NCBI GenBank assembly: GCA_903842455.1 | Contig: CAIMLX010000162.1 | Coordinates: 1 to 49,523 of the forward strand | Source: an uncultured Hyphomicrobiales bacterium | Lineage (GTDB): Bacteria > Pseudomonadota > Alphaproteobacteria > Rhizobiales > Devosiaceae | Length of the DNA: 49,523 bases | Direction of reading: 5' to 3' | In this document: positions 1 to 49,523 of the stretch, piece by piece | How positions within the stretch are numbered: position 1 is the first letter of the stretch | Layout of the letters: each line of letters opens with the position of its first letter | The notes under the pieces: model-generated | What the model was told of the DNA's origin: nothing | Databases searched by the model: none | What the model saw: only the letters and a program-made list of their open reading frames with translations | Position numbers and translations under genes: made by a program

Positions 1-131
1 CAACTCGCGGAACGCCGCGATCGTCTCGCCGTCGGCCTGCGCTGCCACCCCCCGCGTTACAACAGTCTTACAACTGGAGACGCGACAGCATGTCTAAACT
101 ATTGGCAACCCTATGTAATTCTGATGGTACG
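1..131. other. Flank left of the truncated dusA start, probably end of an integrated element
   Basis: No gene can be supported here. The stretch from about 60 to 131 reads as less GC-rich than the rest and replaces what should be the continuation of dusA, which is read leftward from 206 and loses similarity at about 132. Positions 1-48 are open on the minus strand from a GTG, but 16 codons running off the edge are too few to call. The inference is that this is DNA of an element integrated in dusA, or a deletion scar. Confidence 0.4.
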
Positions 132-206
132 CGTCCAGTCCATCATCGGCGCCACGGAAAAGCGGCGGCTCTCCCGCAGGGTCTCGGTCAGGTTATCCTC
201 TCGCAT
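132..206 (-). pseudogene. dusA: 5' remnant of dusA, tRNA-dihydrouridine synthase A (25 codons)
   Basis: Read leftward from an ATG at 206, the sequence encodes MREDNLTETLRESRRFSVAP and then MMDWT. The RRFSVAPMMDWT part is the hallmark N-terminus of DusA, which normally continues DRHCR. Here it continues with unrelated residues and stops at 111. DusA reduces uridine in the tRNA D-loop; this fragment cannot be functional. The dusA 5' end is an established integration site for a family of phage and island integrases, and similarity is lost exactly at the MDWT codons, so this is probably an attachment half-site. An intact dusA is expected elsewhere. Confidence 0.72.
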
Positions 207-266
207 GGCCACGCCTATACAATGCAAGCCGGGCAGAACCAAGGGGCCGGACGCGGCGTCAGAGTT
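171..266. repeat. Direct repeat copy 1 (dusA promoter and first 12 codons)
   Basis: This segment of about 96 bases recurs at 2277-2373 in the same orientation. The first 56 bases (171-226) are identical, followed by one substitution, about 20 more identical bases, and then a few substitutions and a one-base indel. It covers the promoter and first 12 codons of dusA read on the minus strand. It is not part of an insertion sequence: no transposase or terminal inverted repeats accompany it. Confidence 0.9.
214..242 (-). promoter_or_regulatory. Predicted dusA promoter, copy 1
   Basis: On the minus strand a TTGGTT -35 box (242-237) and a TATAGG -10 box (219-214) are separated by exactly 17 bases. 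The -10 box ends 7 bases before the dusA ATG at 206, so the predicted transcript would begin at or next to the start codon (leaderless). The same arrangement is kept in the second repeat copy. Assignment is by motif only. Confidence 0.45.
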
Positions 267-505
267 GCATTAAGCGCATGACGCGCAGCCAGACACTTCA
301 AAACTGCCGTAGGCAACGGGGCGGCGACACCTAACAAAGGCGTGATCAATTGGCGGCTGGTCGTACAGTTCAGCGCCCCCCGATGTTGATCTCCGGGTAA
401 CGCCCGGACCCTATACTGGTAACAGCAGGGAACGCGGTCCTCGATCAGTCGCCACATCGTGGCTGGGCTCTTTCGAAAAGCTTGACCGATTTCGACGGGG
501 ACCCG
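267..505. other. Gene-free stretch upstream of the EAL gene
   Basis: No coding frame with convincing composition is seen. It holds a short CCGGG-TAAC-GCCCGG hairpin near 393-407 and a TATACT hexamer at 412-417 that could be a -10 box for the EAL gene, but no well-spaced -35 box accompanies it. Confidence 0.3.
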
Positions 506-2080
506 ATGGGGCGCGGTAGGATAGTCGCAGTCTGGACCGTGGTGTGCATTGCATGCATCGGCCTGTTTTCCGCAGCGGGATACTTCATCGGCTCGGCGAG
601 CATAGCCGCCGAGAACCGCCGACAACTGGACGAACTCAACCGGCTGGTGCTGGCGCGCAGCGAGCACGAGATCGACTTTGCCTTCATCGCCCTGGGCGAG
701 CTGGTCGAGGCCGGTGCGGCGGGGTGCGATGCCGTTTCGCTGGGCTCCATGCGGCGGCAGGTCTATGTCCGCTCCACCATCAAGGACATCCGGGTCATCG
801 ACGCGGCAGGAATGGTGACATGCTCGGCATTTCCCGAGACCCAGAGCTTCGATTCACCGTCGCCGCTTGCTGACCGGTCGGTGCCGTCGCGAGTCGCCAG
901 CATCGAACTGTCCCGCATCGATCAGGTGTCGTCGGTGGCGGTGGGCGTGTCGTGGAAAGTGTTACCAGACCTCGCGCTGACTGCAGTCCTCAGTACCGAC
1001 TCGCTGCTGTTTGGCGCCCTTCCCCCGGGGCTGCGCGAAGGCGCGACCATGACGCTTTCCCTCACCAATGGCGATGTAGTCGCAGGGTATGGCAATACTT
1101 CCGAGAGCGGGCTGGGTGAGCCGCAGACTTCGACCTTCACCAGCAACTCGGACCGCTACCCCCTGTCCCCGCAACTGCGGGTGGAGGCGGCCTCCTTCGA
1201 TACATGGAATCGGGATTCCATCATCTATTTCGTCGCGTCGGGTGCCGTACTTGGGCTGATTTTTGGCCTGCTGCTCGCCCGCCTTCTCACCCTGCCGAAG
1301 TCACCCCTGCGGGAACTCGATGATGCGCTCGCTGCCGGCGAGTTCGTTCCCTACATGCAGCCGGTATTCTCGCTGGCGTCCGGCAGGATCGTCGGCTGCG
1401 AAGTGCTGGTCCGCTGGCATCGCCAGAATGGCGAAACCGTTCCGCCATCACGCTTCATAACCCTGGTCGAGCAATCCGATCGCATCGCGCGGCTGACGCA
1501 TGATCTGATGACCCTCGCGCTACGCGAACTGCGGCCGCTGATCGACCGCGATCCGGAATTCTCGGTGGCCTTCAACATTGCGCCTGGCCATTTTCTCGCG
1601 GACGGCTTTTCGCAGTCGGTGGAGGCGCTGGTGCGAACCGCGGGCGTGCGTCCCAGTCAGATCATCCTCGAACTGACCGAACGCCAGGAACTCTCGGATC
1701 CGGTGAGGGCTGCCACGCTGGTTCTGGCCCTGCGCGCAAAAGGCTTCAAGATCGCCATCGACGACGCGGGCACCGGCCATAGCGGGCTTTCCACGGTAAA
1801 GAGTCTTGGCGCCCAAATCCTCAAGATCGACAAGTTCTTTGTGGACTCCATCCTGATCGACCACTCCGCCAGGGTCATCGTCGAAATGCTCGTGAAGGTT
1901 GCCCATGAACTGCAGATGACGCTGGTCGCCGAGGGCATCGAAAAGCCCGAGCAGATGGCGTGGCTCAAGGCGGCCGGCGTCGACGATGGGCAGGGCTATC
2001 TGGTGTCGCCGGCAGTTCCGATCGACAAGTTCCTGACGCTCGTCGATGCCCGCAACGGGATCATCGGCCGCCCTGGTTGA
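506..2080 (+). CDS. CSS-motif/EAL cyclic-di-GMP phosphodiesterase
   Basis: A 524-residue inner-membrane enzyme predicted to hydrolyse c-di-GMP to pGpG. A transmembrane helix (about 7-30) and a second (about 239-261) enclose a periplasmic CSS-type sensor with Cys74 and Cys106 in VTCSAF; in characterised CSS phosphodiesterases such a cysteine pair forms a redox-sensitive disulfide. The EAL domain follows (about 270-515). The signature reads EVLVRW rather than EALxRW, but the catalytic Glu299 is kept, as are LTERQ, DDAGTG, LKIDKFFV, VAEGIE and the QGY motif, so activity is likely. The ATG at 506 is preferred; a TTG at 482 would add eight hydrophilic residues ahead of the helix. The gene lies between two direct repeats carrying dusA starts and has no co-directional neighbour, which suggests a laterally acquired cassette. 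Redox control of the enzyme is an inference. Confidence 0.9.
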   Translation: MGRGRIVAVWTVVCIACIGLFSAAGYFIGSASIAAENRRQLDELNRLVLARSEHEIDFAFIALGELVEAGAAGCDAVSLGSMRRQVYVRSTIKDIRVIDAAGMVTCSAFPETQSFDSPSPLADRSVPSRVASIELSRIDQVSSVAVGVSWKVLPDLALTAVLSTDSLLFGALPPGLREGATMTLSLTNGDVVAGYGNTSESGLGEPQTSTFTSNSDRYPLSPQLRVEAASFDTWNRDSIIYFVASGAVLGLIFGLLLARLLTLPKSPLRELDDALAAGEFVPYMQPVFSLASGRIVGCEVLVRWHRQNGETVPPSRFITLVEQSDRIARLTHDLMTLALRELRPLIDRDPEFSVAFNIAPGHFLADGFSQSVEALVRTAGVRPSQIILELTERQELSDPVRAATLVLALRAKGFKIAIDDAGTGHSGLSTVKSLGAQILKIDKFFVDSILIDHSARVIVEMLVKVAHELQMTLVAEGIEKPEQMAWLKAAGVDDGQGYLVSPAVPIDKFLTLVDARNGIIGRPG

Positions 2081-2276
2081 TGCGCAACCGACCTGAAGCC
2101 GAGCGCCAGGCTCTACAGGAGTGTAGCGTCGCAGTAGTGCAGGCGCCTGATCTCCTGCCGGCGAACGCTCAGGGCTGCAGCGCCAAGGTCTTCTTTTGCG
2201 CGCCATGATAACACGCTGGGTTTGAAACCCAATCGAACCCGGCACGCAGCCTTATTGGCCAGGTGCGTTGATCTGC
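2081..2276. other. Gene-free stretch between the EAL gene and repeat copy 2
   Basis: Nothing convincing is coded here on either strand. Together with the repeat and the region to 2483 it makes a gap of about 400 bases between the EAL gene and marR. No clear terminator for the EAL gene is visible. Confidence 0.3.
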
Positions 2277-2312
2277 CTCCCGCAGGGTCTCGGTCAGGTT
2301 ATCCTCTCGCAT
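2277..2312 (-). pseudogene. Second dusA 5' remnant (12 codons)
   Basis: From an ATG at 2312 the minus strand encodes MREDNLTETLRE, the same as the dusA remnant at 206, and then diverges into unrelated sequence. It lacks the diagnostic RRFSVAPMMDWT part, so its identity as dusA rests on the near-identity with copy 1. Confidence 0.55.
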
Positions 2313-2319
2313 GGCCACG

Positions 2320-2348
2320 CCTATACAATGCACGCCGGGCAGAACCAA
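2320..2348 (-). promoter_or_regulatory. Predicted dusA promoter, copy 2
   Basis: Same boxes as in copy 1: TTGGTT (2348-2343) and TATAGG (2325-2320) with a 17-base spacer, ending 7 bases before the remnant ATG at 2312. If still active it fires leftward, antisense to the 3' end of the EAL gene. Confidence 0.4.
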
Positions 2349-2483
2349 GGGGGGCGGGACGTGGCGTCACAATTGCAGCAGGTGCATGGATTCGGGAGAG
2401 CAGATGTAAACACCGCCCACATCGGCCGTGACCGGCTCATGCCAGCCCTGCAGGGATCGTTAGAATTCTACCGATCTACCGCG

Positions 2484-2514
2484 TTGACTTGGTAAGTACA
2501 CATATTATATGTAC
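2484..2514 (+). promoter_or_regulatory. Promoter and palindromic operator of the marR-tetR-hxlR operon
   Basis: A TTGACT -35 box (2484-2489) precedes an AT-rich -10 region around 2506-2513. The imperfect palindrome GTACACATATTATATGTAC (2496-2514, arms matching at 8 of 9 positions) covers the -10 region and ends five bases before the marR ATG at 2519. This is the usual layout for MarR autorepression. If the boxes are right, transcription starts at or beside the ATG, which would make marR leaderless. Confidence 0.6.
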
Positions 2515-2518
2515 GCTT

Positions 2519-2989
2519 ATGACATCCAGCGACCCTGATTTCAAACACCATGCGCCGCTGAGCTACCTCATCCACGAGGTAGCTCGCCTGCTGAAGCGCC
2601 GCTTCGAGGAAGAAGCGAAGACCCACGGCATCACGTTGCCGCAGTGGAAGGCGCTGGCGCAGATCGCGCTGAGGGACAACATCACCCAGCGCGCCCTTGC
2701 CGACGCCATCGACGCCGACCCGATGACCATGTCCGGCATCCTCGACCGCCTTGAGAAGCGCGGGCTGATCAACCGCTTCCCCGACCCCAAGGACAGCCGC
2801 GCCAAGCTCGCCCGGCTGACCCCCGACGGCGAGCTGATGTTCCAGAAGGCCCGCGAAGTCGGGCTCGCTATGTACGAAGCCGCCACTGTCGGTCTCTCCG
2901 AGACCGAGCGCGAAACCATGAAGTCCGCGCTCTGCAAGATGCGCCACAACCTGTCCGGGCTCGCAACTTCGTCACCGGTCCCGTGCTGA
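2519..2989 (+). CDS. MarR-family transcriptional regulator
   Basis: A 156-residue winged-helix DNA-binding protein. The MarR core is clear: N-terminal helix SYLIHEVARLLKRRFEEEA, then TLPQWKALAQIAL, the recognition region TQRALADAIDADPMTMSGIL, and a wing with PDPKDSRAKLARLTPDG, which carries the D-x-R signature. ATG 2519 is chosen because the upstream TTG extension (from 2489) would run through the palindromic operator. It is the first gene of an overlapping operon with a TetR and an HxlR regulator. Members of the family usually respond to small aromatic or oxidising ligands and repress themselves; the ligand here cannot be told. Confidence 0.9.
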   Translation: MTSSDPDFKHHAPLSYLIHEVARLLKRRFEEEAKTHGITLPQWKALAQIALRDNITQRALADAIDADPMTMSGILDRLEKRGLINRFPDPKDSRAKLARLTPDGELMFQKAREVGLAMYEAATVGLSETERETMKSALCKMRHNLSGLATSSPVPC

Positions 2990-2994
2990 CCCTG

Positions 2995-3519
2995 ATGACC
3001 GGCACAAAATCGCCCGCGCCGCGCCGCGTTCCCAACTTCCGCCGCCAGGCGGGGCGGCGTGATGAGATCATCGCAGCGGCGCTCGAAGTGTTCTTCAAGC
3101 ATGGCTACGACCAGGGCCGTCTCGAGGACGTGGCGAGGCTCTCGGGCGTCGGCAAATCGGCCGTGCTCTATCATTTCGGCTCGAAGCTCGGGCTCGTCGC
3201 CAGCGTGGTCGCCGAGCATTGCCTGCCGCTCGTGCCGCTCGGCAATGGCTCCGTCGACCAGCAGATCGAGACCAGCCTGGCTGATCCCGCGGCAACCAAG
3301 GTGCTGCGCCTCGTGATGATGGAACAGCGCCGCCTGCCCAAGCTCGGCCGGCTCTACGTCACCGCCATCCTGCGGCGGGTGTCGAGCTGGCAGGGGTTCG
3401 ACAGCATCGAAGTGGTGCGGCACGCGGTAGCGCAAGCCTATGGGCGTCTGGCGGGGCGCGTGCTGCTCGAAGGCTACCCAATTATCGATGGAGGCCCCGA
3501 TGGCACCGCATCAGTCTGA
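2995..3519 (+). CDS. TetR-family transcriptional regulator
   Basis: About 174 residues. The N-terminal TetR helix-turn-helix is unmistakable (RRDEIIAAALEVFFKHGYDQ, then LEDVARLSGVGKSAVLYHFG). The C-terminal ligand domain is short for the family (about 190-210 residues is usual) and ends just inside the next gene. ATG 2995 lies five bases after the marR stop; a GTG at 2983 would overlap marR by seven bases and is an equal alternative. Neither has a strong ribosome binding site, so translational coupling to marR is likely. The last 20 bases overlap hxlR. The missing C-terminus might reflect truncation by the junction with the following gene. Confidence 0.85.
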   Translation: MTGTKSPAPRRVPNFRRQAGRRDEIIAAALEVFFKHGYDQGRLEDVARLSGVGKSAVLYHFGSKLGLVASVVAEHCLPLVPLGNGSVDQQIETSLADPAATKVLRLVMMEQRRLPKLGRLYVTAILRRVSSWQGFDSIEVVRHAVAQAYGRLAGRVLLEGYPIIDGGPDGTASV

Positions 3520-3847
3520 ACTCGTGCACGATCTGCTCGACCTCGCCGGCGCCCGCTGGACGATCGACGTGATCGCCACGCTGCACGACAACCGCATGCG
3601 CTTCAACGAGATCGCCCGCGCGATGGACGGTATCTCGCAGAAGCAACTGACCTCGACGCTGCGCTCCCTGCAGCGCCACGGTTTCGCCATCCGGGTCGCC
3701 TTTGCAACCATCCCGCCGCGCGTCGATTATGAGCTGACTGACCTTGGGCATGACTTTGCGCGGAGCTTCGTGGCGCTCGGCGCGTTTGCCCTCGAGAACC
3801 AGCGGCATATCGAGGCCGCACGGCGCGACTTCGACAGCGTCGCCTGA
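3500..3847 (+). CDS. HxlR-family transcriptional regulator
   Basis: 115 residues with the typical HxlR winged helix: LAGARWTIDVIATL at the start of helix 1, then RFNEIARAMDGISQKQLTSTL, LQRHGFAIRVAFATIPPRVDYELTDLG and a C-terminal dimer helix. The ATG at 3500 is chosen because GGAGG (3490-3494) sits five bases upstream; it overlaps tetR by 20 bases. The conserved N-terminal cysteine of redox-sensing HxlR members (YodB/HypR type) is absent. It is the third regulator in one transcript; the target may be the following ndh gene or something outside the window. Confidence 0.88.
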   Translation: MAPHQSELVHDLLDLAGARWTIDVIATLHDNRMRFNEIARAMDGISQKQLTSTLRSLQRHGFAIRVAFATIPPRVDYELTDLGHDFARSFVALGAFALENQRHIEAARRDFDSVA

Positions 3848-3891
3848 ACAACCACGGTTCCGCCCCCGTATCCTTCGCGGGAGGCGGTGCA

Positions 3892-3952
3892 GGCGCGAAA
3901 GCGCCGCCGGAGGGGGCCTGCCCCATGCATGCACCTGCAGGCCCCCCTCCGG
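3892..3952 (+). terminator. Double stem-loop after hxlR
   Basis: Two hairpins follow the regulator operon. GGCGC-GAAA-GCGCC (3892-3905) is a perfect five-pair stem with a GNRA tetraloop. A larger one pairs CCGGAGGGGGCCTG (3907-3920) with CAGGCCCCCCTCCGG (3938-3952), with one bulged base and a 17-base loop. No U-tract follows, so factor-dependent termination, an mRNA-stabilising role or a small palindromic repeat are all possible. Confidence 0.5.
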
Positions 3953-4055
3953 TTCCCGCCCGGCCTGGGAGGCATGAGAGCGGTGCGACACCTGGCATTG
4001 TGATTGCCGGCCGAGGTCCTTACATCCCCCGCGGGGCGCATAGCGAGGTAGCACG

Positions 4056-5387
4056 ATGACCACCGGGGCCCACAAACATCGCGTCGTCATCATTGGCGGC
4101 GGCTTCGGCGGCATTGCCGCCATCGAGCAACTCAAAGGCACCGGCGTCGACATCACGATCATCGATCGCCGCAACCACCACCTGTTCCAGCCGCTGCTCT
4201 ACCAGGTGGCGACCACATCGCTCTCCCCATCCGAGATCGCCTGGCCGATCCGCATGCTGGTCCGCCACCGGCCCGAAGTGACCACAGTGCTCGGCAACGT
4301 CACGGGCATCGACAAGACCGCCCAACTGGTGGAGCTCGAGGATGGCGCCCGGATTGCCTATGACAGCCTGATCATCGCCACCGGCGCGGCGCACGCCTAT
4401 TTCGGCCACGACGAATGGGCGCCTTACGCTCCCGGCCTGAAGACGCTCGAGGATGCGACCGCGATGCGCCGCCGGCTGCTGCTCGCCTTCGAGGCGGCCG
4501 AGCGGCAAACCGATCCCGAGAAGCGGAAGGCCCTCCTGACCTTCGCCATCATCGGGGCCGGCCCGACCGGCGTGGAGCTGGCGGGCGCCGTGATCGAACT
4601 CGCCCGCCTGACGTTGCGCGACGATTTCCGCACCATCCATCCGGAGGAGGCTCGGGTGGTGCTGATCGAAGCGGGGCCGCGCGTCCTGCTCAACTTCCGC
4701 GAGAGCCTGTCGGAGTACACGAAATCGGCGCTTGAACGCCTGGGCGTCGAGGTACATCTCGGCGATGCGGTGACCAACATCACGGCGGACTCGGTTGCCT
4801 ACGGCGACAAGGTGCTGCGCGCTGGAACCATCGTCTGGGCCGCGGGCGTACTCGCCTCCCCGGCCGCAAAATGGCTCGAGGTCGAGGCCGATCGCGCCGG
4901 ACGCATCAAGGTGAACCCAGACCTCACCGTGCCGGGCTATCCGAACATCTACGCCATCGGCGACACCGTCAGCGTCCTCGGGCCGAACGGCAAACCGGTG
5001 CCGGGCATCGGCGACGCCGCAAAGCAGGGTGGCCGGCAGGCGGGCCGGGCGATAGAGGCGCAACTGGCTGGAAAGCCGGTGCCGCCGTTCCGCTACCGGC
5101 ACCTGGGCGACATCGCCACCATCGGCCGCAGCGCAGCGGTGATCGATTTCGGCTGGGTGCAGCTCACCGGCTGGGTCGGCTGGTGGGTCTGGGGCCTCGC
5201 CCACATCTACTTCCTGATCGGGCTGAAGAACCGCATCTCGGTGGCGGTGAGCTGGATGTGGATCTATCTCACCGGCCATCGCAGTGCCCGGCTGATCACC
5301 TGGGGCGAGGCCGGCGGCGCCCGCCAGACCCCGTTGGCCCCCAAGGATATGGCAAAGCCCCCCGATCCGGACCCGGGGGCTGCCTGA
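4056..5387 (+). CDS. ndh: Type II NADH:quinone oxidoreductase (NDH-2)
   Basis: A 443-residue flavoprotein that passes electrons from NADH to quinone without pumping protons. The FAD-binding motif VVIIGGGFGGIAA (about 10-22), the family motif HLFQPLLYQVATTSLSPSEI, the NADH-binding AIIGAGPTGVELAG (about 165-178), and the second FAD motif PNIYAIGDTV with the quinone-site segment following are all present. The C-terminus has a Trp-rich amphipathic or membrane segment (WVQLTGWVGWWVWGLAHIYF) typical of membrane anchoring. Length matches the family. GAGG lies eight bases before the ATG. It follows the three-regulator operon in the same direction after 208 bases with hairpins, so it is probably a separate unit. 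A role in balancing NADH under high flux is usual for the family. Confidence 0.93.
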   Translation: MTTGAHKHRVVIIGGGFGGIAAIEQLKGTGVDITIIDRRNHHLFQPLLYQVATTSLSPSEIAWPIRMLVRHRPEVTTVLGNVTGIDKTAQLVELEDGARIAYDSLIIATGAAHAYFGHDEWAPYAPGLKTLEDATAMRRRLLLAFEAAERQTDPEKRKALLTFAIIGAGPTGVELAGAVIELARLTLRDDFRTIHPEEARVVLIEAGPRVLLNFRESLSEYTKSALERLGVEVHLGDAVTNITADSVAYGDKVLRAGTIVWAAGVLASPAAKWLEVEADRAGRIKVNPDLTVPGYPNIYAIGDTVSVLGPNGKPVPGIGDAAKQGGRQAGRAIEAQLAGKPVPPFRYRHLGDIATIGRSAAVIDFGWVQLTGWVGWWVWGLAHIYFLIGLKNRISVAVSWMWIYLTGHRSARLITWGEAGGARQTPLAPKDMAKPPDPDPGAA

Positions 5388-13069: not shown

Positions 13070-14938
13070 CTACTCGGCCGACTTGGGGTCGAGGAAGCCA
13101 CCGGACTGCCGCGCCCACAGGCTGGCATAGTGGCCGCCGAGCGCCAGCAGTTCGGCGTGGGTGCCTTCCTCGACGATCCGGCCCCGCTCGAGCACGATCA
13201 GCCGGTCCATCTCGGCAATGGTCGAGAGCCGGTGGGCGATCGCCAGCACGGTCTTGCCCTGCATCAGGGTCTTCAGTTGCGACTGGATGGCGGCCTCGAC
13301 TTCGCTGTCGAGGGCCGAGGTCGCCTCGTCGAGCACCAGGACAGGCGCATCCTTGATCAATACGCGGGCGATGGCGACGCGTTGGCGCTGGCCACCCGAG
13401 AGTTTTACCCCGCGCTCGCCGACAAAGGCGTCGTAGCCAGCCCTGCCCTTCTGGTCGACCAGTTCGGCGATGAACTCGTCGGCCTCGGCGCTCGCGGCGG
13501 CGCTCGCCATCTCGTCGTCGGTAGCGTCGGGGCGGCCGTAAACGAGGTTAGCGCGGATCGAGCGGTGCAGCAGCGCCGTATCCTGCGTAACGACACCGAT
13601 CTGGCGGCGCAGCGACTCCTGCGTCACCTGCGCGATGTCCTGCCCGTCGATGGTGATGCGTCCGCCGCGCAGGTCGTAGAAGCGCAGCAGCAGGTTGACC
13701 AGCGTCGACTTGCCGGCGCCGGAGCGGCCGATGAGCCCGACACGCTCGCCAGGCGCAAGCTTGAGGTCGAGGCCGTCGATCACCGGAGTGACCTTGTCGT
13801 AGTGGAAGCGGACATGATCGAAATGGATCGCGGCCTTCGTCACCACCAGCGGCTTTGCATCGGGCGCGTCGAGGAGGCCGAGCGGCCGGGCGATCAGTTC
13901 GGCGGAGTTTTGCGCGGTGCCGTAGTTGCGCATCAGGCCGTTGAGTTGCTTCATCAGCCGGCCGAGCAGGTTGTAGAGCCGGAGGATCAGGCCGGTGGTG
14001 AAGGCGACGCCGCCGACCGTCACGACGCCCTCCGTCCAAAGATGCACCGACAGCCCCGCGATGCCGGCAATGGCGACGCCCGAGAGCAGCCCCATCCAGG
14101 TACGAACGCCGACCAGGGTGCGGGCCAGCTTCGTCATCGCGGCGATGAAACTGTCGAAACCGGAGCGCACGAACTTGTCGTCGGCCTCTGCCGAACCGAA
14201 CAGTTTCAGCGTCTGGATGTTGGAAAAGCTGTCGACGATGCGGCCAGACAGTCCTGAGGCCTGCTCAGCTGCAGCAGACGAAAATTTCCGCATGCGCGGC
14301 ACGTAGGTCCAGGCGAGGAACGAGAACGCCACCACCCAGGCGATCACGGCCACCGACAGCCGCCAGTCGAGCTGGCCAACGAGGACGATGGTGGTGATGG
14401 TGTAGATGGCGATGAACCACACCACCTGCAGCAGCGACACCATGAAGTCGCCGATGGCGCCACCTGACTGCCACACCTTGCTGGCGATCGAGCCGGCGAA
14501 ATCGTTCTGGAAAAAGCTGAGGTTCTGCCGGATGACGTGGGCGTAGGCCTGCCAGCGCACGAGGTTGTAGAAGCCGAGGTTGACGGTCTGCTCTTCCACC
14601 GTGGCCGAGAGCCAGGTGATGATCGAGCGGAACACCAGCGTCACCACCAGCATCCAGACGAGTTCGTTGCCATAGCCGGCAATCAGCCCGCCCCAGCCGT
14701 CCGACTGGCTCGAGACGTCGAGAATGTCGACGAGGCGACCGATGTAGTAGAACAGCGCGCCCTCGACCAGCGCCACCAGGCCACCGAGGATGAGGAGGCT
14801 CGCAAATGCCAGCTTCGCCTGCCGGATGTAGAACCAGAAGAACTTCCACGTGACCGCAGGCGGTTGCAGGTCGCCTGTGCGGCCGAACGGGTCGGTCCAG
14901 CGTTCAAAGAAATGGTGGATGGGCTCGAGGAGCTTCAT
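13070..14938 (-). CDS. ABC exporter, fused membrane and ATPase domains, paralog 1
   Basis: 622 residues. Six transmembrane helices (about 40-340) of the exporter type I fold, then a nucleotide-binding domain with Walker A GLIGRSGAGKSTL (402-414), signature LSGGQRQRVAIAR, Walker B VLVLDEATSALDS and H-loop AIAHRLST. All catalytic residues are present, so it can work as a homodimer. It is most similar to the two paralogs upstream on the same strand. The family covers MsbA-like lipid flippases and multidrug or peptide exporters; substrate unknown. The ATG is 19 bases from a perfect GCTTGGATCCAAGC palindrome. The C-terminus lies five bases from the convergent repressor stop. Confidence 0.9.
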   Translation of the reverse strand: MKLLEPIHHFFERWTDPFGRTGDLQPPAVTWKFFWFYIRQAKLAFASLLILGGLVALVEGALFYYIGRLVDILDVSSQSDGWGGLIAGYGNELVWMLVVTLVFRSIITWLSATVEEQTVNLGFYNLVRWQAYAHVIRQNLSFFQNDFAGSIASKVWQSGGAIGDFMVSLLQVVWFIAIYTITTIVLVGQLDWRLSVAVIAWVVAFSFLAWTYVPRMRKFSSAAAEQASGLSGRIVDSFSNIQTLKLFGSAEADDKFVRSGFDSFIAAMTKLARTLVGVRTWMGLLSGVAIAGIAGLSVHLWTEGVVTVGGVAFTTGLILRLYNLLGRLMKQLNGLMRNYGTAQNSAELIARPLGLLDAPDAKPLVVTKAAIHFDHVRFHYDKVTPVIDGLDLKLAPGERVGLIGRSGAGKSTLVNLLLRFYDLRGGRITIDGQDIAQVTQESLRRQIGVVTQDTALLHRSIRANLVYGRPDATDDEMASAAASAEADEFIAELVDQKGRAGYDAFVGERGVKLSGGQRQRVAIARVLIKDAPVLVLDEATSALDSEVEAAIQSQLKTLMQGKTVLAIAHRLSTIAEMDRLIVLERGRIVEEGTHAELLALGGHYASLWARQSGGFLDPKSAE

Positions 14939-14956
14939 GGGGCGCGGACCTCAATA

Positions 14957-14970
14957 GCTTGGATCCAAGC
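14957..14970. promoter_or_regulatory. Perfect palindrome upstream of ABC exporter 1
   Basis: GCTTGGATCCAAGC, 14 bases with perfect dyad symmetry, 19 bases before the start codon of the exporter gene. Position and symmetry suggest a repressor site, for instance of MarR or TetR type. No regulator gene adjoins it. Confidence 0.4.
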
Positions 14971-15187
14971 AAAGGGAATGTGAAATCATCGAACGAGTGA
15001 GCTAGGTACGTCGCGCCATCCCAAATTTTGCACCCAAACCGGGTATTAGTGCGTATCCCGAACTTGATCTGCATCCGCATGGCATCACTCCATCGGGCAG
15101 ACAGTCAGGCGTGCGGCGCCTCCTTTGGTGCGCGCGCGGCGCTGTTGCTCCTGCTTGCGTCCACAAGGAGAAGAACGGCGCTTCTAC

Positions 15188-15219
15188 GAGGGTGGGGAGC
15201 CTTTGGGCTCCCCACCCTC
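15188..15219 (-). terminator. Strong stem-loop after ABC exporter 2
   Basis: A perfect 14-pair stem, GAGGGTGGGGAGCC with GGCTCCCCACCCTC, and a TTTG loop, three bases beyond the stop codon of the exporter gene. It has no U-tract but is very stable. It probably ends or trims this transcript and separates exporter 2 from exporter 1. Confidence 0.65.
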
Positions 15220-15222
15220 TAA

Positions 15223-17091
15223 TCACTCCGCCGCAGCCGCTTCGGCTTTCACGTCGAGGAAGCCGCCGGACTGGCGTTCCCACAGCGCGGCGTAGTGGCC
15301 GCCTCGAGCCAGCAGTTCGGCGTGGGTGCCCTCCTCGACGATCTGGCCCTTTTCCAGCACCACCAGCCGGTCCATTGCGGCGATGGTCGAGAGGCGGTGG
15401 GCGATGGCGATCACCGTCTTGCCCTGCATCAGCGACACCAGCTGCTCCTGGATCGCCGCCTCGACCTCGGAATCGAGGGCGGAGGTGGCTTCGTCGAGAA
15501 CCAGGATAGGGGCGTTCTTGAGCAGCACGCGGGCGATGGCTACGCGCTGCCGCTGGCCGCCCGAGAGCTTGACGCCGCGTTCGCCCACATGGGCGTCGTA
15601 GCCGCGGTTGCCCTTGGGGTCGACCAGCCCCGCGATCACATCCGCCACCTTCGACTGCTCGGCGGCGCGGATCATCTCCTCGTCGGTCGCAGTCTGGCGG
15701 CCGTACTTGATGTTCTCGCGCACCGAGCGGTGCAGCAGCGAGGTGTCCTGGCTGACGAGGCCGATGGCGGCACGAACGCTCTCCTGCGTCACCTTCCGCA
15801 CATCCTGCCCGTCGATCAGGATGGAACCCGCTTCCACGTCGAACAGGCGCAGCATCAGGTTGACCATGGTCGACTTGCCGGCGCCGGACCGGCCGACCAG
15901 CCCTACCTTCTCGCCTGGCTTGATGGTGAGGTTGAACCCCTCCATCACGGTGCCTTCCTTGCCGCGCCAGTAGTTGAAGCTCACGTCCTTGAACTCGATG
16001 CCGCCTTCGCGGACGACGAGTTTGGGGGCGGTGGGCGGATCGAGCATGGCGATGGGCTCGGCGATGGTTTCCATCGAGTCCCGCGTGGTGCCGATCTGGC
16101 GGAAGATGTTGGAGCCCACATCGAGGATCCAGCCACTCATGTTCATGATCTGCAGCGCGAACGGGATCGCCGTCGCTACCGCGGCGGCGTTGAGCGTGCC
16201 GTTGTTCCAGCTCGCAAGCGCGATCCAGGCGATCGAGATCACGAGGCCGGCGTTGAGCAGGAACAGCGTCGACCACATGTAGGTGAAGATACGCATCAGC
16301 TTGCGGAACTCGACCGCATGCGCTTCCACCGACTCGGCGACGTATTTGTCCTCGTGGCCATCGGTGGAGAAGGTCTTCAGCGTGTGGATGTTGGTGTAGC
16401 TGTCGACGATGCGGCCGGTCATCACCGACTTGGCCTCCGAAAGCTCCTCGGAGTGCCGGGCGATCAGCGGCATGACGATGGTGAACAGCACGCCATAGAG
16501 GATGAGCCAGATGGCGATCGGCACCAGCAGCACCCAGTCGAGCCCCGCCATCACCACCACCGCGACGATGACGAAGATGCCGGCGTACCACACCGCGTCG
16601 ATGGTCATGTTGACCGAGGTCTCGATCGATTCCCCCGCCTGCATGATCTTGTTGGCGATGCGGCCGGCGAAGTCGTTCTGGAAGTAGGTCCAGCTCTGCC
16701 GGATCACGTGCCAGTGGCTCTGCCAGCGGACGATATCGACGAGGTTCGGCGTGATCGAGTGGTTGCGCACCAGCGTGTCGAGCAGGAAGGTCAGCGGCCG
16801 GATCACCGCGATGGTGGCGATCATCCAGACGAAGGTCTGCCCGTGCAGGTCGAATATCTGGCCGGGTGGCGTGGTGGCCAGCATTCCGACCACAAGGCCG
16901 ACGAAGACCGGCATCATCGCATCGGCAACCGAACCAACGGCGACCAGCACGATGCGCAGCATGAAAGCGGTGCTGAACTGCTTGACGAAGTAGAAGGTGA
17001 ACGCGGTGACGCCCTTGGGGGGCTGCGTGTCGCTGGCCAGCGCTACCGGTGCGTAGCGGCTGTCGAACCAGGCAATGACTCGGTTGAGCAT
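15223..17091 (-). CDS. ABC exporter, fused membrane and ATPase domains, paralog 2
   Basis: 622 residues with the same architecture as its neighbours: N-terminal cytosolic stretch with QPPKGVTAF, six transmembrane helices, then GLVGRSGAGKSTM, LSGGQRQRVAIAR, VLDEATSALDSEVEAAI and AIAHRLST. Both halves of the ATP sites are complete. The ribosome binding site directly ahead of ATG 17091 is poor, and a 30-codon ORF with a near-perfect Shine-Dalgarno lies 37 bases upstream, so translation may be coupled or attenuated (inference). Bounded downstream by a 14-pair stem-loop. Substrate unknown. Confidence 0.9.
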   Translation of the reverse strand: MLNRVIAWFDSRYAPVALASDTQPPKGVTAFTFYFVKQFSTAFMLRIVLVAVGSVADAMMPVFVGLVVGMLATTPPGQIFDLHGQTFVWMIATIAVIRPLTFLLDTLVRNHSITPNLVDIVRWQSHWHVIRQSWTYFQNDFAGRIANKIMQAGESIETSVNMTIDAVWYAGIFVIVAVVVMAGLDWVLLVPIAIWLILYGVLFTIVMPLIARHSEELSEAKSVMTGRIVDSYTNIHTLKTFSTDGHEDKYVAESVEAHAVEFRKLMRIFTYMWSTLFLLNAGLVISIAWIALASWNNGTLNAAAVATAIPFALQIMNMSGWILDVGSNIFRQIGTTRDSMETIAEPIAMLDPPTAPKLVVREGGIEFKDVSFNYWRGKEGTVMEGFNLTIKPGEKVGLVGRSGAGKSTMVNLMLRLFDVEAGSILIDGQDVRKVTQESVRAAIGLVSQDTSLLHRSVRENIKYGRQTATDEEMIRAAEQSKVADVIAGLVDPKGNRGYDAHVGERGVKLSGGQRQRVAIARVLLKNAPILVLDEATSALDSEVEAAIQEQLVSLMQGKTVIAIAHRLSTIAAMDRLVVLEKGQIVEEGTHAELLARGGHYAALWERQSGGFLDVKAEAAAAE

Positions 17092-17128
17092 CTTGAACTC
17101 ATGTTCCGAGCCCGTCTGACGGATTGAG

Positions 17129-17221
17129 TCAGGTGAGGGCTACAAGGGATTGTTTTCGTTTCTCTTTGGCCAGGCCGAGAGCAGCGGGTGCGATGCGGCG
17201 CGGGAAGTTACGAGTTTCCAT
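17129..17221 (-). CDS. Possible leader peptide upstream of ABC exporter 2
   Basis: A 30-codon ORF (METRNFPRRIAPAALGLAKE, then KRKQSLVALT) starts at ATG 17221 with AAGGAGG five bases upstream, a near-perfect match to the anti-Shine-Dalgarno sequence and far better than that of the exporter gene itself. The peptide is basic (seven Arg/Lys) with no membrane segment. It ends 37 bases before the exporter start. Leader peptides before ABC or resistance genes can sense translation stress, but nothing here proves it is translated. Confidence 0.35.
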   Translation of the reverse strand: METRNFPRRIAPAALGLAKEKRKQSLVALT

Positions 17222-17298
17222 TTGTCCCTCCTTGGGGTGGTTGTTGGTGTGGGCACGGCACGGCTTAGGCGGTGGAGCACGGCGTGGTCACATCGTCT

Positions 17299-17417
17299 CC
17301 CGCCCCCTCGTGGGGAAGGATCAAGGGTGGGGGGCAGCACGCGCCGCCCTACCCCCACCCCAGCTACGCCAAGCCGCTACGCGACTGGCTGCGCTACCCT
17401 CCCCACAAGGGGGAGGG
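17299..17417. repeat. Palindromic intergenic repeat element between ABC exporters 2 and 3
   Basis: About 119 bases bounded by imperfect 23-base inverted repeats (17299-17321 and 17395-17417, five mismatches), with an inner hairpin GGGTGGGGG (17325-17333) / CCCCCACCC (17352-17360). Read through, it gives the Pro/Gly-rich LPPTLDPSPRGGG that marks such palindromic repeats in alphaproteobacteria. It accounts for much of the 346-base gap 17092-17437; the rest holds the possible leader ORF and nothing else seen. Confidence 0.65.
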
Positions 17418-17437
17418 AGGAGAGGCGTCGGCGGTTG

Positions 17438-19297
17438 TCACTCCGCCGCCTCCTCCAGGATGTCGGGCAGGAACCCACCCGACTGGCGGCTCCAGAGGCT
17501 GGCATAGGTGCCGCCCTGCTGGATCAGTTCGGCGTGCGTGCCCTCTTCGATTATCTTGCCCTTGTCGAGCACAACGAGCCGGTCCATGGCGGCGATGGTG
17601 GAGAGTCGGTGGGCGATGGCGATCACCGTCTTGCCCTCCATCAGTCGGGTCAGCTGGCCCTGGATCGCTGCCTCGACCTCGGAGTCGAGCGCCGAGGTCG
17701 CCTCGTCCAGCACGAGGATCGGGGCGTTCTTGAGCAGCACGCGCGCGATGGCGATGCGTTGGCGCTGCCCGCCCGAGAGCTTCACGCCGCGTTCGCCGAC
17801 ATGGGCGTCAAAGCCCCTGCGCCCCTTGAAGTCGACCAGCCCATCGATGAACAGATCGGCCTCCGCCAGCCTGGCGGCTGCCAGCATCTCTTCCTCGGTC
17901 GCATCCGGGCGGCCGTACATGATGTTCTCGCGCACCGAGCGATGCAGCAGCGAGGTATCCTGCGTGACCACGCCGATCTGCTCGCGCAGCGACTCCTGCT
18001 GCACCTTGGCGATGTCGTTGCCATCGATCGAGATCACGCCGCCTTCGCGGTCATAGAACCGCAGCAGCAGGTTGACGATCGTCGACTTGCCGGCCCCAGA
18101 ACGGCCGACGAGGCCGATCTTTTCGCCCGGTTTGATCCGCAGGTTGAGCTTGTCGATGACGCCCGACTGCTTGCCGTAGTGGAAGTTCACGTTGTCGAAG
18201 GCGATGTCACCCTTCACCGGGCCGAGGGGCTTGGCGCCCGGAGGATCGGCCACGACACGCGGCAGCGAGATCGAATTGATGCCGTCGCGGACGATGCCGA
18301 TGTTCTCGAACAGCTGCGACATCTCCCACATCACCCACTGGCTCATGCCTTGGAAGCGCAGCACGAGTGCCGTCGCCACGGCGATCGCTCCGGGCGTCAT
18401 GGCACCGTTCAGCCATTGCGTGATGCCGACGGCCATCACGGCGAACAGCAGCAGGTTGTTCATCAGCGGGATGACGATCTGCAGCAGCGAAAACATCCGC
18501 ATCTGCTTGTGCACGGTGCCCATGAACTGATCCATGGCCTCGTGGGCGTAGGCCTCCTCGCGGTTCGAATGCGAGAACAGCTTCACCGTCGCGATGTTTG
18601 TGTAGCTGTCGACGATACGGCCGGTCATCAGCGAGCGCGCGTCGGCCTGCGCCTCGGCCACCTTGCCGAGCCGCGGCACGTAGTAGCAGAGCAGCGCGAC
18701 ATAGCCGGCGAGCCAGACGAGGAACGGCAGCGCCAGCCACAGGTCGCTCATCGCCGCTAGCACCACCGCGCCGGCGAAATAGACGACCACGAACACCGTG
18801 ACGTCCAGCAGCTTCATCACCACTTCGCGCACCGCCAGCGACGTCTGCATCAGCTTGGCGCCGATGCGGCCGGCGAACTCGTCCTGGAAGTAGCTCATCG
18901 ACTGGCGCAGCAGGTAGCGATGCGCCATCCAGCGGATGCGCTGCGGCAGGTTGCCGATCAGCGTCTGGTGAATGATCAAGGTGTCGGCAATCTGCAGCGC
19001 CGGCAGGATCAGCAGCAGCAGGCCCGCCATCAACGCCAGCTTCCAGCCCTCATCGGCGAGGAACGTCGCCCTGTCGGCGGTGCCGAGCCAGTCGATGATC
19101 GAGCCCATGAAGCTGAACAGCATGATCTCGCCCAGCGCCACGCCAGCGCCGAGCACCGCCATGGCGATCAGCCACCGCTTGGCGCCCTGGCAAAAGTGCA
19201 GGCAGAAGGCCACCAGCCCCTTGGGTGGCTGTGCCGGCTCATCGAGCGGATAAGGCTCCAGCCGCGTTTCGAACCACTTGAATACCGGGCCGATCAT
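17438..19297 (-). CDS. ABC exporter, fused membrane and ATPase domains, paralog 3
   Basis: 619 residues with exporter-type transmembrane domain (about 30-340) and a complete ATPase: GLVGRSGAGKSTI, LSGGQRQRIAIAR, ILVLDEATSALDSEVEAAI and AIAHRLST. The N-terminal tail shares QPPKGLVAF with paralog 2. AAGGAG lies eight bases before ATG 19297, and a perfect GACCTCAA-N6-TTGAGGTC inverted repeat lies 43 bases upstream. It is first in the series of three exporters, but the gap of 346 bases to paralog 2, with a palindromic element, argues for separate transcription. Substrate unknown. Confidence 0.9.
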   Translation of the reverse strand: MIGPVFKWFETRLEPYPLDEPAQPPKGLVAFCLHFCQGAKRWLIAMAVLGAGVALGEIMLFSFMGSIIDWLGTADRATFLADEGWKLALMAGLLLLILPALQIADTLIIHQTLIGNLPQRIRWMAHRYLLRQSMSYFQDEFAGRIGAKLMQTSLAVREVVMKLLDVTVFVVVYFAGAVVLAAMSDLWLALPFLVWLAGYVALLCYYVPRLGKVAEAQADARSLMTGRIVDSYTNIATVKLFSHSNREEAYAHEAMDQFMGTVHKQMRMFSLLQIVIPLMNNLLLFAVMAVGITQWLNGAMTPGAIAVATALVLRFQGMSQWVMWEMSQLFENIGIVRDGINSISLPRVVADPPGAKPLGPVKGDIAFDNVNFHYGKQSGVIDKLNLRIKPGEKIGLVGRSGAGKSTIVNLLLRFYDREGGVISIDGNDIAKVQQESLREQIGVVTQDTSLLHRSVRENIMYGRPDATEEEMLAAARLAEADLFIDGLVDFKGRRGFDAHVGERGVKLSGGQRQRIAIARVLLKNAPILVLDEATSALDSEVEAAIQGQLTRLMEGKTVIAIAHRLSTIAAMDRLVVLDKGKIIEEGTHAELIQQGGTYASLWSRQSGGFLPDILEEAAE

Positions 19298-46240: not shown

Positions 46241-49200
46241 TTACGCACTGAACGCCCCCGTCGCCGCTGCACCCGGCCCGAACTCGGCGCCGAGCTGGCT
46301 CACGGCAAAGTCGAAGCCCGCCGGCAGTACCCCGAAATCGGCCACCTGCGCCGCAGCCGGATAGCTCGCCGAAGGGGTCGAAACCTCGAACTCCCGCACC
46401 GGCACCGCCCCATCGAAGATCGTCACGCGATACGCCTTAGGCGCAAAGTCGAGCCCCACTTCGAGCGCCGCCCAACTGCCCGCATCGGCGCGCGACCGTC
46501 GCGTCCAGTGCAGCGCGACGTCGCCCGAACTATCGCGCGCCGCCCGCAAATGCCCGGGCGCCAGCGGCGTCAGCGGCCCGAGCCCGACCTCGGCGGCAAA
46601 CTCCGTCCCCTCGGCATCGCGCCGCCCGGCAAAGGCCCGCAGCGCCAGCGTGTCACCGACCCAGCCCGGCTCGACCGGCAGCACCGCCACCGCCTCGTCG
46701 AGCACCACCACCCGCGCCCCCGCCGCCACGACCCCGACCGCCGTGCCGCCCTGTCCGCGCAATAGTCGCGTCAGCCGATACGCCCCTGCCGAGACCAGTT
46801 CGGCCCCGGCAAAGCCGATCACCTCCCAGCCCGCGTCCGTCTCGACCGCGATGCGATTGCTGCCCGCCAGCGCCGCCCCCGCGTCGACATCGGCAAGATG
46901 CCCGCCGAACAGCGTCACCGTCAGCGCCTGCCCGTCCCAGAGGTGCAGCGGCCCCGCCGCCAGCGCCGACACCAGTTCCCCCATCGCCGCCGGCCGCGTC
47001 AGTCGCGCCAGCGAGGCCCCGGTCGATGCCAGTTGCATTTCCACCGTCCCCGGCCACGGCGACGCCCAGGCCGCGAGCAGCAGCCGCGACACCCCCGGCG
47101 AACTCGCCTCGCCCGGCAGATGCGCCGCCACGAGCAGCGGCTCAGCCACCGGGGCCGGCGCGGCCGACCCGCGCGAACCCCGCTCGCTCAGCACCGCCGG
47201 ATGCAGCACAGGCGCCACCGCCCGAGCCGAAATCTTCCGCGCCACCCCATCCCGGATCTCGGTGATCTCGAACGGCCCCTCGCCCTCGCCCGCCACCGCG
47301 ATCACGTCGCCCACTTCGAGCGCCGCGAAGGATGGCGGCAGCGTCAGCTCCAGCGTGTCGCGCGACACGCTCGCCGCCACCAGCGCCCGCTCCGCCGCCA
47401 CACGCCCCCCGGCCGGATCCAGCACCAGCCCGGCATTGACCCCGGCCACCGCCCCGCCCTCGGCCAGCATCGCGGTCGCCGTCCCCGCCAGGTAGTCGTG
47501 CTCGCGATCGACATAGGTCAGCGCCAGCCGCCCCACCGCCTCGAACGGGTCCGGCCGCCGCCGCGACCGCATCGGCCCATCGCCCACCACCACGTCGTCG
47601 ACAGCCACCGCCGCCCGCACCGACGGCGACACCAGCGCGAGCCCGTCCTCACCATCGCGCACCGACAAGCCGGTCGCGCCGAGCAGCCCGTCGAACGCAT
47701 CGCGCGCCGAAACCACGCCCTCGACCGCCAGCCCATGCACCAGCGGCAACGCCGCGACGCCCGACACCGCCGTGCGCCAGTCTGCCGCTACCGCCACCGC
47801 CAGTTCATCGCTCGCCAGCGCCCCGAGCCGCCCGGTCAGCCAATGCCCCGCCGCATGGTTTTCCGCATCCGACCAGGTCTCGCCATCTCCGGGGAACGCC
47901 GGAAACGGCCGCGCATCCCAGGTCCACACACTCACCCGCTCCACCATCGGGCTTTCTGCCCAGTAGCCGAGCGCCGCGCGCAAGAACTGCCGCTGCATCA
48001 ACCCATCCGGCGCCCCCGACGAGAAATACGGCCGCCCGCCCTCGACGCTCTTGCCATCGGGAAACACGTTGGGCTGGTTCGCCCCCTTGTCCACCGCCCC
48101 GCAGCCGAGCTCGGTGAACCAAACCGGCTTCGACCCGGGCACCCAGGCCGTCGGCGACGCCGAACGCACCCCACCCACCCGGTCGTGATGGGCGTTGCTC
48201 CACCACCCGGCAATGTCCTTGAACCGCCAGACCCAGTCCTCGCCATGCGCCCCATCGGCGATCGGCGTCCGCACCCCGTCGAACCGGTCGGCGTCCGACG
48301 CATAGAACCAGTCGAACCCCTCGCCCCCGGCAATCCCTGCCGTCAGATAGTCAAGCGAATGCGGCCCGTCCCACAGCGCGAAATCCGCATGCGCCTCGCC
48401 GTCGCGCCAGTCGGTCACCGGCATGTAGTTGTCGATCCCCACCGCCGCGATATCGTCAGAGGCCCAGAGCGGATCGAGGTGAAACAGCTTGTCCCCCGGC
48501 GCGTCAGCCGGCTGGAACCCATGATACTCGCTCCAGTCCGCCGCATAGGTCAGCGCCACCTCCGGCGCGAGCCCGTTCGCCTCCTCCGCGAGGTCCACCA
48601 GCGCCTCGACGAACGGAAACCCGTCGCCGCCATCACGCACTGTCGTCATCCCGACCATTTCGGAGCCAAGCACCAGCGCATCCGCCCCGGCCTCGTCGGC
48701 CAGCGCCGCGTAGTGCCGCACCATCCGCCGCAGCCCCCAGTCCGACGCCGAGCCGACAAAGCCCGTCACATCAGGCGCCGCCCCGGTGATCCGCCCGCGC
48801 CACGGATAGGCCGGCTGCCCCATGGCGTTCCCCTCGGGGATGTCCATCAGCAGCATCGGATAGAGCGTCACCCTCAGCCCGCGCGCCTTGAGGTCGGCAA
48901 TCGCCGCCCGCACCGCCGCATCCGACGGCGTCCCGCCATAAGCTGGCCCGCCGTCATGCGTCGACACCACCTCGGCGCCGCCGCGCGAAACGCCGGCGAC
49001 GTTCCACTCGGTGCCCCGCACGGAACGCGTAGCCGCCTCCACCTTCGGCCGCATCGTGCAATGCCCGGCCCGCAGGTCATCCCCGAACCAGCTCACCACC
49101 AGCGACACATGTTCGAGGTTCGGACACAGCGCCACGAGTTCGTCGATCGACAGCGTCCAGTCGCTCAGCACAGCGGATTGGTGCGCATTCTCGGTCGCCG

Positions 49201-49523
49201 CCGAACCCGGCCCCACCACCCGCACCCGCGGCACCGGGTCATAGCCGAACTCCGTCGCCCCGGGGATCACCGTCACCGCCCGGATCAGCGGCTCGAGCGC
49301 GCCGACCACCCGGCACAGCTCCACCGTGATATTGGGCACCCGGTTGCCGAACTCGCCGAGCGGCAGCCGCTCGAACACCAGGTAGCAGAGCCCGCGATAG
49401 GCCGGCGCGATCCCCTGCTTGGCCTCGATCAGGCTATCCGCCGCCTGATCCTCCGTCCCCCGGTAGAAGCGCGCTGAAACGCCCTCTAGCTCCAGCAGTT
49501 TCCCATCGGCCCACACCCGCCCG
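46241..49523 (-). CDS. Gene transfer agent / phage tail tip protein with TIM-barrel domain (partial)
   Basis: At least 1094 codons, open at the right edge, so the N-terminus is missing. It matches the large RcGTA ORFg15-type host-specificity protein: a TIM-barrel-like domain (LRVTLYPMLLMDIPEGNAMG, LVLGSEMVGMT, WFTELGCGAVDKGANQPN) in the first half and a phage-tail (TipJ/gpJ-like) domain with beta-rich modules in the second (LALTYVDREHDYL, VAGVNAGLVLDPAGGR, LEVGDVIAVAGEG). Such proteins form the tail tip that contacts recipient cells. This would be the last large gene of a cluster lying beyond the right edge. The protein is unusually rich in Ala, Gly and Val. Confidence 0.92.
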   Translation of the reverse strand, partial: GRVWADGKLLELEGVSARFYRGTEDQAADSLIEAKQGIAPAYRGLCYLVFERLPLGEFGNRVPNITVELCRVVGALEPLIRAVTVIPGATEFGYDPVPRVRVVGPGSAATENAHQSAVLSDWTLSIDELVALCPNLEHVSLVVSWFGDDLRAGHCTMRPKVEAATRSVRGTEWNVAGVSRGGAEVVSTHDGGPAYGGTPSDAAVRAAIADLKARGLRVTLYPMLLMDIPEGNAMGQPAYPWRGRITGAAPDVTGFVGSASDWGLRRMVRHYAALADEAGADALVLGSEMVGMTTVRDGGDGFPFVEALVDLAEEANGLAPEVALTYAADWSEYHGFQPADAPGDKLFHLDPLWASDDIAAVGIDNYMPVTDWRDGEAHADFALWDGPHSLDYLTAGIAGGEGFDWFYASDADRFDGVRTPIADGAHGEDWVWRFKDIAGWWSNAHHDRVGGVRSASPTAWVPGSKPVWFTELGCGAVDKGANQPNVFPDGKSVEGGRPYFSSGAPDGLMQRQFLRAALGYWAESPMVERVSVWTWDARPFPAFPGDGETWSDAENHAAGHWLTGRLGALASDELAVAVAADWRTAVSGVAALPLVHGLAVEGVVSARDAFDGLLGATGLSVRDGEDGLALVSPSVRAAVAVDDVVVGDGPMRSRRRPDPFEAVGRLALTYVDREHDYLAGTATAMLAEGGAVAGVNAGLVLDPAGGRVAAERALVAASVSRDTLELTLPPSFAALEVGDVIAVAGEGEGPFEITEIRDGVARKISARAVAPVLHPAVLSERGSRGSAAPAPVAEPLLVAAHLPGEASSPGVSRLLLAAWASPWPGTVEMQLASTGASLARLTRPAAMGELVSALAAGPLHLWDGQALTVTLFGGHLADVDAGAALAGSNRIAVETDAGWEVIGFAGAELVSAGAYRLTRLLRGQGGTAVGVVAAGARVVVLDEAVAVLPVEPGWVGDTLALRAFAGRRDAEGTEFAAEVGLGPLTPLAPGHLRAARDSSGDVALHWTRRSRADAGSWAALEVGLDFAPKAYRVTIFDGAVPVREFEVSTPSASYPAAAQVADFGVLPAGFDFAVSQLGAEFGPGAAATGAFSA

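Follow-up and report, generated by a model that had tools for sequence, protein, structure and literature searches.

Judged from its sequence, the window (the whole stretch of DNA analysed here, 49,523 nucleotides from a bacterium of the family Devosiaceae) has at its left edge one of the junctions of a dusA-specific integrative element; scars of this kind are already known. The dusA gene is split, its displaced start lies at an element end, and the working gene on another contig has a different start behind a common core. Beside this scar the leader of the displaced dusA occurs twice, on either side of a gene for an EAL-domain protein. A duplicated leader next to a dusA-element scar is unusual, and the movable cassette that the initial annotation had proposed from it is not supported. 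The features concerned are the following (positions in the window).

1 to 141, no strand assigned: right end of the dusA-targeting integrative element, closed by the core GTCCAGTCC (minus strand, GGACTGGAC); from identity with the start of contig C36
111 to 206, minus strand: orphan remnant open reading frame MREDNLTETLRESRRFSVAPMMDWTRTIRIT followed by a stop, the displaced dusA start; from its translation
133 to 168, minus strand: att core, the conserved DusA codons RRFSVAPMMDWT; from sequence comparison
171 to 280, minus strand: leader copy 1, comprising the displaced dusA's first 12 codons and the region upstream of them, presumed to hold the promoter
281 to 2276, no strand assigned: segment between the leader copies, the presumed insert; from comparison with genomes of the family
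506 to 2080, plus strand: gene for a CSS-EAL c-di-GMP phosphodiesterase of 524 amino acids; from Pfam, the frame being open from TTG 482
2277 to 2388, minus strand: leader copy 2, no att core detected, with the open reading frame MREDNLTETLREADQRTWP... of 47 amino acids
2437 to 2518, plus strand: upstream region of the MarR gene, similar to that of relatives by blastn from about 2480 and by eye further left
2519 to 2989, plus strand: MarR regulator, a dusA neighbour in part of the genus; from Pfam and comparison with relatives

The working dusA of this genome is found on contig C198, and its product is assigned to DusA by NCBIfam (491 bits, cut-off 269). Its start codon lies 59 nt from the contig end, which is upstream of it, and its first residues are MNGGEKMPETPGKYNVSVD-RRFSVAPMMDWTDRHC. 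The stranded start in the window instead reads MREDNLTETLRES-RRFSVAPMMDWT on the minus strand, then runs into the non-DusA residues RTIRIT and a stop at position 111. The two leaders are unrelated, and what the two starts have in common is the core. That is, the insertion lies within the dusA 5′ end (window 1-280 together with C198), that end has been replaced by the element's own (29/36 core bases identical over window 133-168), and semi-conserved direct repeats are present at both element ends (21/24 identical, window 132-155 against C198 8456-8479). In the parts of their paper available to us, Farrugia et al. 2015 (PMC4482086) describe dusA-specific islands in the same terms: a new 5′ end is supplied, the old one is stranded, and 21-bp semi-conserved repeats mark the ends. 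The insertion in the dusA 5′ end, the semi-conserved att direct repeats, and the replaced and stranded 5′ ends are thus common to those islands and to our case. Copy 1 had been read as a 5′ end displaced by a dusA-targeting element, and the different start and common att core of C198 bear this out. Alignment to the genome's intact dusA, which had been suggested as a check, recovers the core, whereas the 5′ end of C198 differs. We infer integrase action at dusA, with the interior of the element not found in the assembly.

The element ends may also explain where the contigs break. Window 1-141 equals the first 141 bases of contig C36 letter for letter, with divergence at base 142, and the last 141 bases of C198 start right after GTCCAATCCA; a single occurrence of the C198 end was found in the genome, so the recurrence seen is that of the right end. 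From the 141-base identities we infer that assembly halted where 141-base words branched, because more than one neighbour is attached to the ends of the element. In C36 (G000, L225; 1-413) the element end interrupts an open reading frame with a CGNCH motif, which reads into the tail DWTRTIRIT and a stop and adjoins ureC, ureF and a gene of the CobW/HypB/UreG family. From that motif we take the interrupted frame to be cytochrome-c-like; the fragment had no match in PDB (E up to 1), Pfam or plasmids. If C36 (7.7 kb) truly belongs to this genome, its passage from window 1-141 into this frame means that the element, or its right end, occupies a second, non-dus site as well. This site and the dusA site have GGACTGGAC in common. 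The abstract of PMC4482086 reports non-dus sites at much lower frequency; an element end that also lies in a cytochrome-c-like frame sets our case apart from the islands described there.

Looking left of the window for a dusA-type integrase had been suggested as a check. The contig begins with the window, and none was found in the genome. In particular, an integrase like that of the related genome G004 gave no match in this assembly, an empty result that alone is not proof of absence, and the nine places with a Phage_integrase domain gave at most weak matches (best, 24% identity over 119 residues, E 7e-5, between contig C22 and the integrase of phage Haddon). One integrase gene, on contig C261 (L202, 18-1190), begins 18 nt from its contig end; it was rejected as this element's because it has the Arm-DNA-bind_3 architecture and is not similar to the dusA-adjoining integrases of G004 and G007 by tblastn (E 1e-4 or better). 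Beyond it, ABC-transporter-like genes were seen by eye. Searches with window 1-300 gave no match in plasmids and a single phage record, Pseudomonas phage Haddon, in the core region only. The leader was not found in viral contigs as an exact 25-base pattern, and no tRNA site was found in the window. The one Rfam match on window 1-4100 (E 5) was set aside as chance. The missing interior and integrase are a further difference from the islands in the available portion of the Farrugia paper.

A matched case in the same genus shows what such an integration leaves behind. In G007 (L089 and L195), dusA is also split: its start and an adjoining integrase are on contig C27, and a stranded start, MTPDLATARRFSVAPMMDWTY and a stop, is on contig C208. 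The two cores are identical (36/36), whereas the two leaders are not significantly alike (22/300 shuffles scored equally well). The stranded leader is related to those of G010, G011, G013, G014 and G017 (0/300 shuffles in each case). An integrase adjoins dusA in both G004 and G007; the two agree at 80% over 354 residues, and their identity to an integrase of Pseudomonas phage Haddon, a phage that also has the core, is about 49-50%. We call them dusA-type from this likeness and from their position, the latter following PMC4482086 as far as its text was available, where DAI integrases are those of dusA-specific genomic islands.

The leader repeat itself is beyond doubt, as had been noted at the outset. 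Positions 171-246 and 2277-2352 are a direct repeat with 75/76 bases identical, and a weaker homology extends to 280 and 2388 (24/32; 0/300 shuffles equally good). The alignment score of the two copies is 166 against a shuffle maximum of 25. Composition predicts about 6.5e-23 exact repeat pairs of 56 bases, so a chance origin is excluded. All 17 exact direct 40-mer repeats in the window fall within the leader repeat, and only two copies were found in this genome, both in the window. The two parts of the repeat differ in their divergence (1/76 against 8/32; Fisher p 2e-4). The claim that both segments are dusA 5′ ends holds for the first codons, which are present on the minus strand of each; a promoter within the copies is presumed, and a consensus scan of the minus strand of window 1-2600 showed no sigma-70-like site. 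Likewise, copy 1 had been said to encode RRFSVAPMMDWT. The motif does lie on the minus strand at 168-133, just beyond the repeat edge and hence outside the repeated segment, and it is present at copy 1 only. Copy 2 reads MREDNLTETLRE and then unrelated residues, its DusA reading ending at codon 12.

This arrangement is the reverse of that left by an integrase. In the genuine integrations (this genome and G007) the core is common and the leaders are unlike; copies 1 and 2 have a common leader, with the core at copy 1 only. Neither copy 2 nor 2081-2276 yielded an att core, so the EAL unit (171-2276) does not show a core at each of its two ends. The EAL gene is the only gene found in the unit; no integrase was found within it, the EAL frame being the sole one searched and the other long frames overlapping it. 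Given the common leader and the undetected copy-2 core, a second copy from another or nested dusA integration, as well as a cassette excised by an integrase, is not supported. Loss of the unit between the copies would be possible only via homologous recombination or slippage.

The leader is also peculiar to this genome among those compared. A search of 396 other genomes of the order, in which the two best first-look candidates per genome were scored, did not recover it. When leader and core were used together as the query within the family, 87 of 135 other genomes matched (six candidates per genome scored), 86 of them at the core; the remaining one, G078, matched at query positions 30-61 only (E 0.001). 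Among 21 leaders, a comparison that left out G009, 17 of 210 pairs were significant, and the only one involving the window was copy 1 with copy 2; both were unlike the 19 other leaders. For the segment between the copies (281-2276), the matches listed across 136 family genomes fell within the EAL coding part, with one exception, a 26-nt match in the right flank in G087 (E 7.7e-4; two first-look candidates per genome scored).

The gene in this segment has a probable start at ATG 506 and a stop at 2080. Its product matches the Pfam families EAL (1.6e-58) and CSS-motif (1.6e-07), both above the Pfam cut-offs, in the domain order of CSS-motif EAL phosphodiesterases, with the CSS-motif N-terminal and the EAL domain C-terminal. 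The catalytic residues of EAL domains are the E of E-x-L, N, E, DD, K, E and Q; when the protein is aligned with four relatives (one of which ends at a contig edge before the last motifs), these motifs prove intact. Its domains suggest a c-di-GMP phosphodiesterase that is probably active, anchored in the membrane and subject to periplasmic control through CSS, and no functional link to dusA is apparent. Its GC3 is 0.776 against 0.826-0.910 in nine of the ten other window genes listed; the tenth, an M24 gene, is lower still (0.749), which leaves GC3 as weak evidence of a foreign origin. The best relatives among 60 sampled genomes are 38-47% identical, and relatives in the range of 37-47% stand in other neighbourhoods. 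The one in G013 (47%, contig C487, L197) lies on a contig that also has a relaxase-like gene, which we take to be TraA-like, a hint that it may travel with a conjugative element. Among plasmids the protein matched at least 5000 records, all of those counted below 60% identity, and in genome_contigs there were 47 loci (best 38%); no relative of the protein was confirmed in viral contigs. It is probably a wandering phosphodiesterase gene. At its present place it is chromosomal, between the stranded dusA leader and MarR, and lies outside the element rather than being its cargo.

In several relatives MarR is the divergent neighbour of dusA. We fetched 18 dusA stretches from relatives, some of which end early at contig ends. 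Seven have a MarR relative and, with the MarR gene beside the stranded start of G007, there are eight genomes with core and MarR on one stretch; none was seen in the other 11 stretches, some of them ending at contig edges, so the view of MarR as a native dusA neighbour applies to only part of the genus. Measured from the core's first base, the MarR start is 165-313 nt away in five of the eight (G010, G011, G013, G014 and G015); the distances in G017, G007 and G001 are about 0.9, 1.9 and 2.0 kb. In the window the gap is about 2.4 kb, with copy 2 on the MarR side. MarR is the first of three consecutive regulator genes of different families at 2519-3847 (MarR, TetR, HxlR). Further along the window, three consecutive ABC exporter genes of 619-622 aa (Pfam ABC_membrane and ABC_tran) occupy 13070-19297 on the minus strand, and at the right end (46241-49516) there is a gene whose product has GTA TIM-barrel and phage tail domains like those of gene transfer agents.

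Because the copies have a leader but no detected core in common and no integrase was found in the unit, we prefer, with somewhat better than even confidence, a dusA-element scar beside which the EAL segment was inserted without site specificity, about 110 bp of leader being duplicated in the process. A tyrosine integrase would have recombined at GGACTGGAC inside dusA, giving the gene a new start (now on C198) and stranding the old one at window 133-280. The EAL-bearing segment, about 2 kb, would have entered between dusA and MarR by non-site-specific recombination, either a single crossover with leader-bearing DNA or staggered-break repair, leaving about 110 bp of the dusA leader on either side. 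The mosaic identity of the copies (75/76, then 24/32) is consistent with, though not proof of, a crossover or conversion tract. On the other hand, target duplication alone leaves the uneven divergence of the two parts unexplained, so that conversion or constraint is also needed, and the lack of any intermediate or empty site among the genomes seen counts against an insertion.

The window leader is unlike the others compared and was not recovered from the 396 genomes searched with two candidates each. It could therefore be an old start that an element once supplied, and this would revive an earlier dusA integration. This leads to an alternative that we consider less likely, nested integration. 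Copy 1 and the EAL gene would then have arrived with an earlier dusA-specific element, of which the 2.1-kb unit is what remains; the att core at the far end of that element would since have been deleted, and copy 2 would be the older start. Besides the distinct leader, this reading draws on the use of dusA as a site in the genus (the adjoining integrases of G004 and G007) and on the G013 relative beside its presumably TraA-like gene. However, it has to account for the undetected core at copy 2 and in 2081-2276, the failure to find an integrase in the unit, the lack of confirmed protein relatives in viral contigs, and the two genuine integrations, which have a core and not a leader in common.

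An assembly artefact or strain chimera, with leader copies from different molecules misjoined, is improbable. The assembly is a draft of 280 contigs, and the contig ends at the element ends resemble assembly-graph branches. Yet the overlap of exactly 141 nt between the window and C36 suggests a word length above that of the 110-nt repeat, making a false join through the repeat unlikely, and the two copies have distinct tails. An ordinary dispersed 96-bp repeat without relation to dusA hardly merits consideration: outside the core there is no convincing match to other dusA upstream regions, but just two copies were found in the genome, and copy 1 continues in frame into the DusA motif, which already contradicts this reading.

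Set against known systems, the non-site-specific insertion that we prefer places a leader duplication with an EAL gene outside the element, unlike the islands in the available text of Farrugia et al. The titles and abstract openings that we surveyed do not describe a leader duplicated on either side of a cargo gene. IMEVchUSA3 and related dusA-specific elements (PMC8409611, as far as available) are found in Vibrio and relatives, with cargo unrelated to the present one. A bolder thought, to which we give little credence, is that a chromosomal segment can capture a working dusA promoter and first codons along with a cargo gene. If true, such a unit could be gained or lost by recombination between leaders with dusA expression kept, and it would offer a possible route by which dusA-targeting elements first obtain a replacement start.

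The case suggests a simple test for the dusA site: a real integration has a common core and different leaders, and a look-alike has a common leader and no core. It also provides another dusA-element scar, for which the relative G007 offers a matched example, and points to a second, non-dus landing site with GGACTGGAC.
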